The notes beneath the pieces are model-generated. The model searched no databases. It was not told the origin of the DNA and was given only the letters and a program-made list of their open reading frames with translations. Below, one piece after another: positions 9,185 to 51,424 of a stretch of 64,000 nucleotides of DNA. The stretch is from NCBI RefSeq assembly GCF_004099695.1, contig NZ_SCHL01000009.1:1-64000 (forward strand), in the 5' to 3' direction. Source of the stretch: Methanosarcina sp. MSH10X1. GTDB lineage: Archaea; Halobacteriota; Methanosarcinia; Methanosarcinales; Methanosarcinaceae. How positions within the stretch are numbered: the first letter of the stretch is position 1; every line of letters starts with the position of its first letter. The translations under genes and the position numbers were made by a program.

Positions 9185-10294
9185 TTAAATCATACCCATT
9201 TCTCCTAGTCGGTCAGGGAGATAAACCTCGGTCACGAAATCGAGGCCTTTGCCTGCGAAAGCCTGTTGTTCGGCTTTTTTGCCTATATCGAGCTGGAGCT
9301 GGATTTGTTCTTTCCAGTAATCGGATTCGAAACGCGGGTCGGAAAGTTCGCTCCTCAGCGCGTTTATGTCCTGCTCCGTGAGCTTGTCGGTCGAGAGTTC
9401 ATATTCGACTATGTCCGAGGGCTGGAGGCCAAGAAATCTGGCTGCAGGCGTTGCCATGAATTCCGAGAGGTGGGCACTTTTTATAGCCCCGTAGGCAACC
9501 GAGGCATAAATCCTGTAGGACCAGGGATCGCCGTCCGTAAAGACGGCTACAGGAAGATCCAACTCTTCATTCATACGCTTGATGATGCGGCGGGTTGACC
9601 TTGCAGGCTGGCCTTTGAGGTGGACAAGAATCGCGTTGTAAGCTTCATCAAACCCGTTTTCCATCAGACGTGCGTACATACCACCGGTTTCTATGGCAAT
9701 AATCATGCTTGCATCATGGGCTTTGAATTCAATGTTTTCCACATTGAAAGGAATCTGGTATCCGCCTTCGCCCACGTCCTTCTGGCAGTGAATGTTCCGC
9801 TCTCCTCTTTTTGTCTGCTCTGTAATTTCAACAGGCCCGAACATGGTAGCCCCATCCTCCTCAGGGCGCATATGGAAAAATTCCCTCTGTAGAGTGGTAA
9901 GGAGTTCGAGGTCTTCGATCAGGCGGTCGCTCTCAGCCTGTTCTTTGAACTTTGCAGCTTCCCAGCCTTCTGAGATATAGTAGAGTTCTCGAAGCGTTGA
10001 TCCGCGGTTATGGGCGAGGTGCTCGTTTATAAGGAAATCTGTCGCATAAGTAGTTTTCAGGAGCTGGAACGCCCCTTTTACGGTTTTTGCGCTCCTTTCG
10101 CTTTCCCTGTCGCCGTAGACCCAGACATCACTCTCATCGGAATATTCTATATTTGCTTTCGTCCGGCTTGGAAGGCTGACGCTTGGGACAATCTCATTCT
10201 CAAACTGGTTATATATCCTTTCTGCAAGCTCAAGCAGCTTTTCCTTTGCAATGGCATCTGCCTGAATGGTTTTGCTATTTGTTTCCCTTGCCAT
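9185..10294 (-). CDS. top6A: DNA topoisomerase VI subunit A
   Basis: 369 residues, full length. The subunit cuts and rejoins both DNA strands (Spo11-like). The winged-helix catalytic region holds [10 protein letters not shown] (99-108); one of Tyr105/Tyr106 is the nucleophile. The Toprim domain shows IETGG with Glu202 and FTDGDPW with Asp254/Asp256 for metal binding. It starts one base after the stop of the subunit B gene and has GGGGG just before its ATG, so the two are translated together. Cytoplasmic, relaxes and decatenates DNA with subunit B. Confidence 0.97.
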
Positions 10295-46223: not shown

Positions 46224-46631
46224 ATGGTAAAATTGACTGATGAAATGAAGGAAGACTTTGCGAAAATGAAAGTTTTCCCGTTCGCAACTGCATCTAAATC
46301 CGGAGAACCGAATGTAATACCAATAGGGCTGTGCATTTTACAGGAAGATGGAGAAACAATCTGGATAGCAGACAATTATTTCCTTAAGACCCGTAAAAAC
46401 CTTGATGAAAATCCCAGGGGCTCAATCTATGTCTGGGGACCCGAGATTAAAGCCTGCTATCAGATAAAAGGAGATATTGAGATAAAGACTGAAGGGGAAG
46501 ATTACGAGGATATGTATAAAATGGTTAAAGCTAAATCAGAGAAGTTCCCTGCAAAAGCCCTTGTAGTTATGAAAATTACTGAAGTTTATGACTGCAAACC
46601 CTTCACAGAACCAGGAAAGAGAATTCTCTAA
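46224..46631 (+). CDS. Pyridoxamine 5'-phosphate oxidase-like FMN-binding split-barrel protein
   Basis: 135 residues, the size of a single split-barrel flavin domain. FPFATASKSGEPNVIPIG and IWIADNYFLKTRKNLDENPR match the FMN-binding edges of this superfamily. The superfamily is broad (oxidases, flavin and F420-binding enzymes), so the closeness to pdxS/pdxT does not make it a true PdxH. AAGGGG lies about ten bases before the ATG. Cytoplasmic; activity unknown. Confidence 0.82.
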   Translation: MVKLTDEMKEDFAKMKVFPFATASKSGEPNVIPIGLCILQEDGETIWIADNYFLKTRKNLDENPRGSIYVWGPEIKACYQIKGDIEIKTEGEDYEDMYKMVKAKSEKFPAKALVVMKITEVYDCKPFTEPGKRIL

Positions 46632-46996
46632 AAGCTTTTAGAGATTATATGAAAAATTTTACGATTTTATTCTGACTTAGGGGATGAGATAATACCCCAT
46701 TATCTTTCTTTTTTGACAAATTATTCTAATAAAAGATGCTATCACGCCATTTTTCTGAATACTATTTCTTTTTGTAACAATTTATCATAAAACTATAGTT
46801 TAATTGTTAAGAGGTTTAGGTCGGAAAACATATAAAGGATTGTTTAAAACTGAATAAGTGAGAATGTTCTGCAGGGTTCAGTACAGTTTGAGATCCATCC
46901 TGAACTCTGCATACCCGAAGGCATGAAGTATATGACTTTAAAACCATTTTAAAGTTTTCTTCTTGCCTCTTGAATAAAAGTAAGAGGTGAAATAGA
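46632..46996. other. Intergenic region upstream of the halocin-like precursor
   Basis: About 365 bases. A TATA-like ACATATAAAGG at about 46828 and the ribosome site AGAGGTGA (about 46984) belong to the next gene. No other gene seen. Confidence 0.45.
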
Positions 46997-47599
46997 TTGG
47001 AATTAAATAAAAAAGTTCAAAGAATCAGCGGGCTTTTCATGATAATGCTTGTCGTAGGTATGGTACTAGTTACACCTGCATTGGCATGCCCAGCTGGAAC
47101 GGATTGTGGGAATAGCTCGCTCTCTGGAGATCCAATAAAATTAACAGGAGAAGAAAAAGACAAAGTAGTTGATATGGCTTTAAAAAATAGCCATGTAAAA
47201 AAACTTCAAAGTCAGTTGAAAGATGAAGGCCTCATACAGAAAGATCCAGAAGCATTTACTGTACCAATGAAAACAGAAGATAGCTCTGTGAGCAATACAC
47301 AAGTTGTTGTAATAGGGTTCGAATCATCTAGTGCAGAGGTAAATGTAACAAAGAAAACGATAATGTTCGCATACGATCCAGTAACCGACGGTACTGCCAT
47401 AATTGAAGGTACTGGATGGGATTGTACTCTTTGTGCTGCTGGCATAGCCGGATGTGGGGCATGCGCTGCTTCTTGCACAGTAATAAACGCTACGTGTATA
47501 CTATGCTTAGCGTCGGTGTGTACAGCGTCTTTATATCAGTGTACTGTATGTTGTTGCAATTTAGGAAACCAGTGGTGTTGCGATCGACTTGACTGGTGA
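46997..47599 (+). CDS. Cys-rich secreted peptide precursor, halocin C8-like (archaeocin)
   Basis: 200 residues; TTG start with AGAGGTGA before it. A signal peptide ends in ALA before Cys31. A middle region (about 50-140), with QVVVIGFESSS and MFAYDPVTDGTAII, resembles the N-terminal part of haloarchaeal halocin C8-type precursors. The C-terminal 60 residues hold 14 cysteines (143, 146, 153, 156, 160, 167, 170, 175, 182, 185-187, 194, 195) in small-residue-rich sequence (WDCTLCAAGIAGCGACAASC), as in halocin C8. The probable product is an antimicrobial peptide cut from the C-terminus. Downstream genes fit maturation or immunity. Target unknown. Confidence 0.72.
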   Translation: MELNKKVQRISGLFMIMLVVGMVLVTPALACPAGTDCGNSSLSGDPIKLTGEEKDKVVDMALKNSHVKKLQSQLKDEGLIQKDPEAFTVPMKTEDSSVSNTQVVVIGFESSSAEVNVTKKTIMFAYDPVTDGTAIIEGTGWDCTLCAAGIAGCGACAASCTVINATCILCLASVCTASLYQCTVCCCNLGNQWCCDRLDW

Positions 47600-47603
47600 T
47601 TGA

Positions 47604-47939
47604 ATGGATGGAGATATAAATAACAAGGGAAGGATTTACCTCCCTTTCCTCCTTCTATTTATTTCTTTGATTCTCATGGGAATTAGCCTGGCGGGTTCTA
47701 TAGTAGAGTCATTTAACTATATTCCTTTTACACTAATAGGACTCGGCATATTTTTATTAGCTCTTTCATTACTTAAGAAAAATATGACAAGTGCATTAAA
47801 GATAGCTAGTTCGGGTGCTTTTATTATCGGAATTTTTTTAGGAGTTTTTTTCTGGGGAAGAATCTATATTAATATATTTCTGATTTTCATCGGTTGTATT
47901 ATAGTGTATATTATTATTACTAAAAGAGTTCATTCATGA
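47604..47939 (+). CDS. Small membrane protein next to the halocin-like precursor, possible immunity protein
   Basis: 111 residues with four predicted membrane helices and almost no soluble part (LPFLLLFISLILMGISLAGS, FNYIPFTLIGLGIFLLALSL, further helices after 65). Only a few bases separate it from the precursor stop, so it is co-transcribed. No family recognised. Small membrane proteins beside bacteriocin genes often give immunity; that role here is inference from position. Confidence 0.6.
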   Translation: MDGDINNKGRIYLPFLLLFISLILMGISLAGSIVESFNYIPFTLIGLGIFLLALSLLKKNMTSALKIASSGAFIIGIFLGVFFWGRIYINIFLIFIGCIIVYIIITKRVHS

Positions 47940-47957
47940 AAATTGTGAGGTGTTTCA

Positions 47958-48769
47958 ATGAAAACAATAATTTTAATAATTTTGATACTTCTTTCAATAT
48001 CTCTTGTTGGATTGGGTTATATAGAAAGTAAGCCAAACAGTTACGATTTAAAATATAATTTTGATGAAGGTGATGTGTTTGCCACGATATTGTATCTTCT
48101 GTTGAAATGCCAAATAAAATGGTAACTCCGATAAACGTTGATATGAATATTTTAGATATTAACAATACTAGTATTACTGTAAAGAAAATATCGATGGAAA
48201 CAACCCCTGGGAACAAAATCAAAAAGTCCCATATTGAAACAATGACTGATCAAGGAGAAATAATAAAATTAAATTCTGAAGATTTAATACTACCAGAGAT
48301 ACAACCCGAGGTACCAAATACGATAATTTATCCAGAAAACCAGATCCACCAGGGAGAATCATGGACTATTCCTTTTAAAAGGGCAAATAACCTTACTACA
48401 GCGGGAATGTTAACTAGCTATGAATTATTAGGTACAAATAATTATACATGTATCGGTTTTAAAAATGTATCAGTCAGAGCAGGAAGTTTTGAATGTGTTG
48501 GTATTGAATCTGATTCAAATTTTACTTTAAATATGGTAACAAAAACATCTAATGGAACTGTTTATACTACAATAGCTGGAAAGGAATCAGGTAAGAATTG
48601 GGTTGATTTAAACAGTGGGGTATTAGTCAAATCGGAATACGATGTGGATAAAGTTATTAAAACAGACCTTTCTGAGATATATGAGGAAATAGGGCTTGAA
48701 AAATGTTATAAGGAAACTCCAATAGATTCACATATAATTAGTGAACTTGTAAATTTTAAAGAAGGGTAA
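47958..48769 (+). pseudogene. Secreted protein of the halocin-like cluster, interrupted by one frameshift
   Basis: An ATG at 47958 with GAGGTG before it opens with a signal peptide (TIILIILILLSISLVGLGY) but ends early at TAA after 51 codons. The next frame, from about 48080 to TAA at 48769, continues without a start of its own. Adding one T to the run at 48078-48080 gives one protein of about 270 residues. It is probably anchored outside by its N-terminus and has many N-glycosylation-like sites (NNT, NYT, NVS). No family recognised. Genuine mutation or homopolymer error. Confidence 0.6.
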
Positions 48770-48776
48770 CAAAATA

Positions 48777-49799
48777 ATGCACAGATTAAGTATACTCCTT
48801 TTACTTTTTTTATTAATCCCAACAACCTCTGAGGAGCCTGTTTCAGTTCAATATTTCCATCAAAAAGGTTGCCACGATTGTGCAATAACTGATCCAATTA
48901 TTGATCGAATAGATACTCAATATAAAAATAGCAGTGTTGTAATATCAAGAATTGAAACTAGTACTGCTGATGGTTTTAATCAATGGAATAAATATGGTTT
49001 TCTTGAAGTCCCGGCTATTGTAATTAATAACGAAACAAAAATTTCTAAAGAAGAGATTGCTGAAGAGAGAATTAAAAAATCAATCAATGAATACCTTTTG
49101 GAAGAGGAAAAAAACACAAATAACTCCATAAAAAATCTACAGGAAAACAAACAGGATAGTGGATATATAAACACAGACCTGAATTTGCCATTTGCTTATT
49201 CACTCGGCCTTTTTGCAGGTTTTTCACCCTGCTTGATGGCCATACTGGGATTTCTTTTAAGCTTTACTGCAGGAACAAGCAACAGCGCGAAAAACGGCAT
49301 GGTACGCGCAATGGTATTTGGATTAGGGCTCGTGGGTTCCTACTTAGTATTGGGCTTGTGTTTGCTCTCATTCAGAAAATCAATTCCAAGTTTGGAAAGT
49401 TTTTCTTTAATAACAGGTATTATTTTAATTCTTATTGGATTAAATCTTCTAGGGATTTTAAAATCGCCTGTTGTTCTGGATAATTATTTTCAGAATTCTG
49501 CCCGGAAATATGCGAGTACTCTAGGTGGAGTTTTCTTCCTAGGGATATTGTTTTCGTTTGTAAAAGTTCCCTGCACCGCTCCCATGCTCCTTGTGTTGCT
49601 CAATAAGACTGTTACAAACGGAACTGTTAATGATCTGGCTCTATTGATTGCTTTTAGCGGCGGAGTATTAACTCCCTTTATTGGGGTTGGCCTGATTGGA
49701 GGTTATACTCTGTCTAAACAAATTCGTTCATACAGAATATACCTGAAAAAAATCAGTGGATTTGTGCTCATATTACTTGGTTTATGGATGATATTTTAA
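48777..49799 (+). CDS. Thioredoxin-like domain fused to CcdA/DsbD-type membrane domain
   Basis: 340 residues. Signal peptide (1-18), then an extracytoplasmic thioredoxin-like domain with a CHDC active site (Cys32-Cys35) and the cis-Pro in FLEVPAIV. A charged linker leads to six or so membrane helices of the CcdA/DsbD type with conserved cysteines in GFSPCLMAI and KVPCTAPM. Such proteins move electrons from cytoplasmic thioredoxin to the outside. Placed eight bases after the previous gene, it is the likely disulfide-handling protein for the 14-Cys peptide made by this cluster. Confidence 0.85.
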   Translation: MHRLSILLLLFLLIPTTSEEPVSVQYFHQKGCHDCAITDPIIDRIDTQYKNSSVVISRIETSTADGFNQWNKYGFLEVPAIVINNETKISKEEIAEERIKKSINEYLLEEEKNTNNSIKNLQENKQDSGYINTDLNLPFAYSLGLFAGFSPCLMAILGFLLSFTAGTSNSAKNGMVRAMVFGLGLVGSYLVLGLCLLSFRKSIPSLESFSLITGIILILIGLNLLGILKSPVVLDNYFQNSARKYASTLGGVFFLGILFSFVKVPCTAPMLLVLLNKTVTNGTVNDLALLIAFSGGVLTPFIGVGLIGGYTLSKQIRSYRIYLKKISGFVLILLGLWMIF

Positions 49800-49894
49800 A
49801 CCCAATTTTTTAAAGACATGTAAGAATTATCAATGTTTCCAAGCTATGAGTTTTACAACGTAGTTAAAAAAATTACCAATTGAAGGAGACTAAC

Positions 49895-50593
49895 ATGATA
49901 ACAACGAAAGAACTTAGACCAATACTTGTTCTGGCTTTCATAACTGTAGCACTGTCTATCTCAGGCTGCACGGAAAAAGACCTGAGTGCAGAAGATATTG
50001 CAAGCCGGATGCTGGAGAAACAGGAAAGCATTCAAGATTATTCGTATACGATGCACACTACTTACTACGTCGGGGAAAAGGCCATAGAAAGCGAATTTAA
50101 AACCATATATAAGAAACCTCATATGATTAAGAACTTTATACAGGAACCCGGAAAAGAGGAAGAGACGCTTGTACTTTCAGATGGAGAATTCAGGTGGACA
50201 TACGCTCCTGATACAAACACGGTAATGAAAACAAAGCTTCCCAAGACCCCGGAACCGACTGAAAGTGACTATCTGACTCTTATAGGGATTACCCTTAATG
50301 ATACGAATATCTCTTTACTGGGTCTTGAGGAAATTGACAGCAGAGAAATTTACCTGCTGAAGGCTGTTCCTAAAGAAACCGAAGAAAACGCTGCTCAATA
50401 TGAAATGAAAATCTGGATAGATAAAGAAACCTGGATGCCTCTTAAGTACGATCTGTATGACAGCCTTGGAAACCTGACAGTAAGAACCGAAATCTACGAC
50501 CTTAAGGTTAACACAGGGATCCCGGACTCAGAATTTAAATTTAAGATCCCAAAAGGTGCTAAAATAGTAGATTCGGGAGAAATAAAACCCTGA
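49895..50593 (+). CDS. Lipoprotein of the LolA/LppX-like outer-lipoprotein carrier fold
   Basis: About 232 residues. Lipobox ISGC with Cys25 after a hydrophobic segment, so it is anchored to the outer face of the membrane. The mature part (DIASRMLEKQESIQDYSYTM...) has the helix-plus-beta half-barrel pattern seen in the LolA/LppX group, with VLSDGEFRWTYAPDTN and WIDKETWMPLKYDLYD as hallmarks. Ligand unknown. The ATG at 49895 follows AGGAG by seven bases; the TTG five codons upstream overlaps that site and is rejected. Confidence 0.78.
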   Translation: MITTKELRPILVLAFITVALSISGCTEKDLSAEDIASRMLEKQESIQDYSYTMHTTYYVGEKAIESEFKTIYKKPHMIKNFIQEPGKEEETLVLSDGEFRWTYAPDTNTVMKTKLPKTPEPTESDYLTLIGITLNDTNISLLGLEEIDSREIYLLKAVPKETEENAAQYEMKIWIDKETWMPLKYDLYDSLGNLTVRTEIYDLKVNTGIPDSEFKFKIPKGAKIVDSGEIKP

Positions 50594-50667
50594 ATAATTG
50601 AACCTTGAAAGAAGCGAAATGCTAAAAATAGCGGAGTTTGCAGAAGTAAAGTCAGGAGACACTGAAC

Positions 50668-50865
50668 ATGGAAACATCTCTAATGAAAGAACGATTTTTG
50701 TATTTCATTATCGCTCTTATTGTAGGCACATTATTAGGGTACCTGTCTCATGATTTAATGAATGGAATACGTACTGGAATTTTCATTGGAATTGGGTTCG
50801 TTATAGGGAATATACTTGTAGGAAAAAGACGAGAGAGAAGGAAACAAGAAGTAAAAAAACACTAA
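50668..50865 (+). CDS. Small two-helix membrane protein
   Basis: 65 residues: two short membrane helices (about 10-25 and 33-50) joined by SHDLMNGIRT, then a strongly basic tail (KRRERRKQEVKKH). AGGAGAC lies before the ATG. No family recognised. It follows the LolA-like lipoprotein gene and may be the last gene of the cluster. Confidence 0.6.
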   Translation: METSLMKERFLYFIIALIVGTLLGYLSHDLMNGIRTGIFIGIGFVIGNILVGKRRERRKQEVKKH

Positions 50866-51004: not shown

Positions 51005-51424
51005 TCACTCTGCTGGAGCCTCTGCTGGAGCTTCTGCTGCGGCTTCGAGGCCGAGAAGGGCTCTTATGGATTTGCTTCCGTATTCAACGACTTTTGCATT
51101 GATCTGGACGATGTCATGGGCAATTTCTTTGCCGCGCATCATCTTTCTCCTGCGCTGTCCGGGAAGCTTGGGGGTGTAGCCCACGCCGACTGCAAGCAGG
51201 ATTCTCTGTCTTCTGGGGCCTGGGAGGTCGGGTTTCATAACGAAACCGCTGCCGTCACAGCCACCTGTGATCTTGACTTTGTATCCGGTAAGGCCGAAAA
51301 CAGCACCATCAACAACATCGCCTATTGATTTTCCAATTAATGCGTTTGTCTCAGGGTCTTTTACATCGACCTGGTAAGCACGCCCTTCCTTTGGGTCAGA
51401 AACTACAACTTTGAAACTAGCCAT
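51005..51424 (-). CDS. rps6e: Ribosomal protein S6e
   Basis: 139 residues. The S6e core includes [19 protein letters not shown], then [18 protein letters not shown] and [15 protein letters not shown], typical of the family, with a basic [13 protein letters not shown] segment. The C-terminus is an Ala/Pro/Glu repeat tail ([10 protein letters not shown]), shorter than the eukaryotic kinase-target tail. Part of the small ribosomal subunit. Last gene of the minus-strand translation cluster, 130 bases after the aIF5B gene. Confidence 0.97.

Follow-up and report, generated by a model that had tools for sequence, protein, structure and literature searches.

The segment at positions 46997-50865 of a 64,000-nt stretch of Methanosarcina sp. 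MSH10X1 (NZ_SCHL01000009.1; hereafter the window) is best explained as a polymorphic archaeocin-like toxin/immunity cassette, and comparison of sequences makes this reading a probable one. The gene set that an earlier note had reported here was found, with one gene broken and the others open: a secreted precursor with a cysteine-rich end, a protein with four transmembrane (TM) helices, a secreted protein, a thioredoxin-CcdA fusion (TrxCcdA), a LolA-like lipoprotein and a small membrane protein.

46997..47599 (+), precursor, with a signal peptide (residues 1-30), a pro-region (31-138) and a Cys-rich tail (139-200)
47411..47596 (+), tail holding the 14 Cys, a candidate for the mature peptide, from the tail class profile
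47604..47939 (+), 4-TM protein, 111 aa with about four TM helices, best immunity candidate, present in 17 of the 18 loci of the class
47958..48769 (+), DUF3108-like secreted protein, frameshifted near 48087-48094, present in 18 of the 18 loci of the class
48777..49799 (+), thioredoxin-CcdA fusion, with CHDC in the thioredoxin part
49895..50593 (+), LolA-like lipoprotein (PF17131, 49.7 bits against a cut-off of 30), probably left over from a halocin C8-type cassette
50668..50865 (+), P6, a 65-aa 2-TM protein, probably a leftover C8-type immunity gene

The precursor open reading frame (ORF) starts at a TTG with GAGGTG 7 nt upstream and encodes 200 aa with 16 Cys, 14 of them within the last 62 residues, which bears out the earlier description of a secreted 200-residue precursor ending in a 14-Cys domain of about 60 residues. 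Its signal is of the Sec type and ends ALA|C; a twin arginine was not seen. Searches of all six proteins against Pfam, NCBIfam, PADLOC and PHROGs returned nothing for the precursor, and neither it nor a C8-type sister had a match among plasmids. Annexin matches from a PDB profile search were dismissed as chance. The precursor profile matched 43 of the 186 genomes of the order, some across the signal and pro-region only, and the gene order precursor, 4-TM, DUF3108-like, TrxCcdA is repeated in other genera and families (L097, L098, L101 and L105). Because of this recurrence the observation is not a chance one, and the unconserved gene order that the earlier note had said should count against it was not what we found.

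The family consists of a constant N-terminal block with exchangeable C-terminal domains, a mark of polymorphic toxins. Identity among Methanosarcina precursors with unrelated tails is mostly 80-93% over the promoter and leader (about 200 bp) and the first ~33 codons, and drops beyond that point. The window-type pro-region aligned with those of three other classes at hhalign probabilities of 94-96%. The cassette lies in a hotspot bordered by two genes:

46224..46631 (+), left border, a pyridoxamine 5'-phosphate oxidase-like gene, named by eye, with orthologues mapped across the genus
51005..51424 (-), right border, ribosomal protein S6e (rpS6e)

This pair is found close together on a single contig in 14 Methanosarcina genomes, separated by 0.27-1.7 kb in four of them and by 4.4 kb (the window) to 33 kb in the other ten; several of these ten wide gaps hold cassettes or their remnants. 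The hotspot beside rpS6e is empty or variously filled among Methanosarcina genomes, and comparison shows that tails and partner genes are swapped there behind a constant promoter-leader-signal block. One precursor (G003) is sited elsewhere. The hotspot also houses repeated blocks of large secreted proteins with paired 6-7 TM membrane proteins (L161-L165, in G030, G002 and G014), apparently unrelated to the cassettes.

Tail class predicts the downstream partners across methanogens, the window class going with 4-TM and DUF3108-like genes and the C8 class with LolA-like and P6 genes. The partner models were begun from genes chosen by position, so that only later loci test the pairing; a few near-duplicates are included. 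In these later loci the 4-TM gene accompanied 8/9 window-type precursors versus 0/7 others and the DUF3108-like gene 9/9 versus 1/7 (p about 0.001 for each), and for P6 the split was 4/4 versus 0/9 (p about 0.001). In the methanosarcinal loci examined, each of the seven C8-type precursors has LolA-like, P6 or both behind it, and two further tail classes pair with LolA-like plus a 6-TM protein or with a 3-TM protein. The earlier suggestion of the 4-TM protein as immunity candidate gains support from this class-specific pairing.

The last two genes of the segment had been counted in the same cassette and are better read otherwise. LolA-like proteins are partners of C8-type precursors in other genomes, and P6 adjoins such precursors in L113-L116 and L023. 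No other window-type locus has both genes, as expected if they were left behind when a C8-type cassette was lost, and they probably were. A single functional operon of all six genes was rejected because the last two pair with other tail classes. The secreted protein behind the 4-TM gene is present as a DUF3108-like protein, but its gene is broken: the signal peptide reads from 47958 and the body (48107-48769) lies in another frame, joined only via a one-base frameshift. This frameshift is not within a homopolymer and may reflect either real decay or an assembly error. The lipobox Cys of its relatives is absent from the window copy.

Several relatives with a lost or truncated precursor keep the small membrane gene. 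In G005 the last 17 residues of the precursor survive as a remnant, directly followed by a 4-TM gene 73% identical to that of the window, and in G022 and G015 P6 lies between the flank genes with no precursor. One precursor shrunk to 50 aa (L036) and another reduced to a 52-aa remnant (L035) still overlap a retained small membrane gene. An intact precursor lacking a partner gene was not seen among the methanosarcinal loci examined. Partners thus outlast precursors and the converse was not seen, the asymmetry expected of a toxin and its immunity gene; class-specific partners and orphan partner genes are further marks of a polymorphic toxin/immunity system.

The name halocin C8-like, used in the earlier note, suits sister precursors at the same hotspot and fails for the window tail. 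The NCBIfam model halocin_C8_dom (TIGR04449, curated cut-off 24 bits) had no match in the window precursor or anywhere in its genome. Window-type tails (a profile of 17) reached an hhalign probability of 0.6% against the C8 profile, whereas a related third tail class reached 95%; we therefore rejected the window tail as a homologue of the C8 domain. Other tail classes (for example L029-L031) matched neither the C8 profile, Pfam nor NCBIfam. In other Methanosarcina genomes, sister precursors that share the N-terminal block of the window precursor matched TIGR04449 at 42.8 and 48.2 bits, with others near the cut-off, and the domain is present in 9 of the 186 genomes of the order and in 25 of 393 sampled from the phylum. 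The lack of a C8 profile match, another finding that was to speak against the idea, therefore applies to the window gene and not to its sisters. The claim that such a peptide would be new in a methanogen was too strong, as TIGR04449 already matches methanogen genomes. The main survey of archaeal toxins, by Makarova et al. (mBio, 2019), reportedly widened the C8 family already, and some of these precursors may be listed in it.

Window-type pro-regions aligned distantly with those of haloarchaeal C8 precursors (hhalign 70.6%, E 4e-5, score 35.3, against a maximum score of 12.8 in 100 column shuffles), which points to a weak relationship with the pro-region of halocin C8; one of the compared precursors (L144) has a tail that we take to be halocin C8 itself. 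This relationship and the TIGR04449 tails of same-hotspot sisters support the archaeocin-like reading of the precursor. By comparison of its members, the wider family has good support as archaeocin-like, with the window gene outside TIGR04449, and we propose that it works like halocin C8.

Residues 135-338 of TrxCcdA weakly matched the solved CcdA structure 5vkv (E 8e-5), and the CxxC and two TM Cys are present in 18/18 TrxCcdA sequences of the clade. In most Methanosarcina genomes that have it, this clade occurs with cassettes or cassette remnants. Its co-conservation with the precursor, one of the checks suggested earlier, was seen in the gene order of other genera and families and near 9 of the 18 window-type precursors; absence from the other half means that it is not essential to the module. 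Because CcdA-type proteins carry electrons outward, the tail exported by Sec is more likely to be isomerised or reduced than oxidised. No TrxCcdA was found at the C8 loci examined from outside the order. The twin-arginine translocation (Tat) pathway exports folded proteins. The halocin C8 precursor ProC8 is exported via Tat (PMC11509114), and the difference between the Tat and Sec routes may account for the difference in TrxCcdA. A second TrxCcdA type, 72% identical, was found away from cassettes (L038:9450-10502 and L039:9005-10057), adjoining a secreted protein of 119-121 aa with 4 Cys.

An antisense RNA is predicted at the precursor leader, which has the following features:

46749..46922 (-), match to the sRNA162-family antisense RNA (RF02792), 85.7 bits against a gathering score of 78, E 3.9e-15
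46830..46837 (+), probable precursor TATA box ATATAAAG, conserved across the aligned leaders
46870..46911 (+), conserved leader hairpin (arms 46870-46881 and 46900-46911) from RNAalifold, with a few pairs kept through two-sided changes
46964..46989 (+), hairpin predicted to hide the GAGGTG ribosome site, kept in 13 leaders

By analogy with rapid amplification of cDNA ends in M. mazei (PMC3510493), precursor transcription would start near 46858, and the 5' 65 nt of the RF02792 match would overlap the precursor 5' untranslated region (UTR). The first hairpin may reflect the antisense RNA's own stem; the second is nearly invariant in the 13 leaders and thus without covariation support. In relatives, 12 RF02792 copies were found in six loci, one for each of 11 precursors and one extra in L029, where the score reaches 214.8 bits versus 85.7 in the window. 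Leader or sRNA162-type DNA also occurs where no precursor was detected (G002:C1:1708778-1708947, G029:C2:1497803-1497973 and G015:C1:1095417-1095567), perhaps as orphan antisense RNAs.

In M. mazei, sRNA162 binds the 5' UTR of MM2442 across 65 nt and also acts on MM2441; its homologue sRNA171 lies a few genes distant, and the discoverers termed the role of the cis-target MM2442 'still elusive' (PMC3510493). L029 has the layout of M. mazei, running from a secreted protein through a regulator that carries two winged-helix domains and the RNA to a cassette precursor, and from this and its sRNA162 score we take its genome to be M. mazei or a near relative. Since every precursor examined has an overlapping sRNA162-family RNA, MM2442 probably belongs to this precursor family, and its position suggests a same-scaffold precursor of another tail class (L029). 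A start at Met15 (182 nt counted in L029) agrees with the published 184-nt MM2442 UTR, and the conserved TTG with GAGGTG gives a UTR of ~140 nt (L029:9100-9876 (-) and 9952-10141 (+)). The published start is therefore probably 14 codons too late and truncates the signal peptide; this would also account for the ribosome site having escaped its authors. The conserved upstream ORF proposed for the MM2442 5' UTR is unlikely, as by eye its frame shifts among sister leaders. Pairs resembling MM2440/MM2441 (a secreted and a two-winged-helix membrane protein) stand beside cassettes in L029:10570-11854 (-), L026:16851-18038 (+) and L042:7708-8541 (-), and also occur in another family of the order; such a pair is possibly a cassette regulator.

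In the proposed mechanism, the signal peptide would take the precursor out by the Sec route and the weakly C8-related pro-region would hold the Cys-rich domain harmless. Conserved redox Cys and gene linkage suggest that the tail disulfides are rearranged outside the cytoplasm by a thioredoxin that CcdA supplies with electrons. Cleavage would then free a peptide of ~60 residues able to inhibit close relatives, with the membrane as its probable site of action. The adjacent 4-TM protein would shield the producer, as its class-specific pairing and its survival where the precursor was lost suggest. An sRNA162-type RNA would limit synthesis by binding the 5' UTR; the overlap comes from the model match and binding was shown for M. 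mazei MM2442.

Several points weigh against a toxin/immunity cassette. The window tail has no similarity to any known antimicrobial by Pfam, NCBIfam or profile-profile comparison, and the single-sequence AlphaFold model is too poor for use (mean predicted local distance difference test score 44.6). TrxCcdA is near only 9/18 window-type precursors, and the DUF3108-like partner is broken although the precursor is intact. The toxin might also be as proposed and its partners not: the 4-TM and LolA/DUF3108-like proteins could be tail-matched chaperones of export or maturation, as LolA-fold proteins bind hydrophobic partners. Immunity would then reside in the pro-region, whose distant relative in ProC8 is released as the immunity peptide HalI (PMC11509114). 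Genes for chaperones or export should not persist once the precursor is gone, but those for the 4-TM, 3-TM and P6 proteins have done so, and we consider this arrangement unlikely.

Antagonism itself is dispensed with if the precursor is a secreted, Cys-rich protein for structure, adhesion or redox/metal binding whose variation serves, for instance, escape from viruses. Antimicrobial activity is not known for the family, secreted Cys-rich proteins have many roles and virus-exposed surface genes vary too; C8-type tails on the same scaffold, tail-specific partner genes and their retention after precursor loss all speak against such a protein, which we judge improbable. A secreted signalling peptide sensed by a neighbouring MM2441-type membrane regulator seems very improbable. 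The two-winged-helix regulator beside the L029 precursor, similar genes in other loci and the action of sRNA162 on MM2441 (PMC3510493) suit it, but the window cassette has no such regulator, and orphan small membrane genes and C8-type tails would be left unexplained.

A toxin/immunity cassette thus remains our preferred reading. Its extension to the genus, for which the sequences make the case about evenly balanced, would be that Methanosarcina archaeocin islands combine a constant block, an sRNA162-type RNA for each copy, interchangeable toxin tails rich in disulfides and immunity genes specific to each tail, and that sRNA162/MM2442 is an antisense-controlled toxin system, with control resembling that of type I toxin-antitoxins and used between cells. 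MM2442, the cis-target of sRNA162, would gain a testable function, bearing on an open question of archaeal RNA biology, and archaeal peptide warfare would extend from salt lakes to anaerobic methanogens. The proposed layout, with toxin tails that can be exchanged, immunity genes to match them, a thiol-disulfide partner and control by antisense RNA, is unreported in the literature examined.

Among known systems, class II and other small bacteriocins and polymorphic toxin systems share the constant leader, variable toxin end, cognate small membrane immunity candidates and orphan immunity genes. No sequence relationship to them was found, and the window system differs in being archaeal and antisense RNA-controlled, with Sec export and a long pro-region and no dedicated ATP-binding cassette exporter or delivery domain. 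Halocin C8 is likewise made as a secreted precursor with a distantly related pro-region and a C-terminal Cys-rich domain, and sister precursors at the same hotspot carry TIGR04449; the 14 Cys of the window tail, however, are spaced differently and the tail lacks a profile match, the precursor's signal is of the Sec type whereas that of ProC8 is Tat, and the precursor has an sRNA162-type antisense RNA. The family is also linked to TrxCcdA, 4-TM and DUF3108-like genes, none of which were found at the haloarchaeal C8 loci examined. Compared with sRNA162/MM2442 of M. mazei, the window has a weaker RNA match (85.7 versus 214.8 bits) and no adjacent MM2441-type regulator, but its RNA is of the same family and occupies the same place relative to the precursor.

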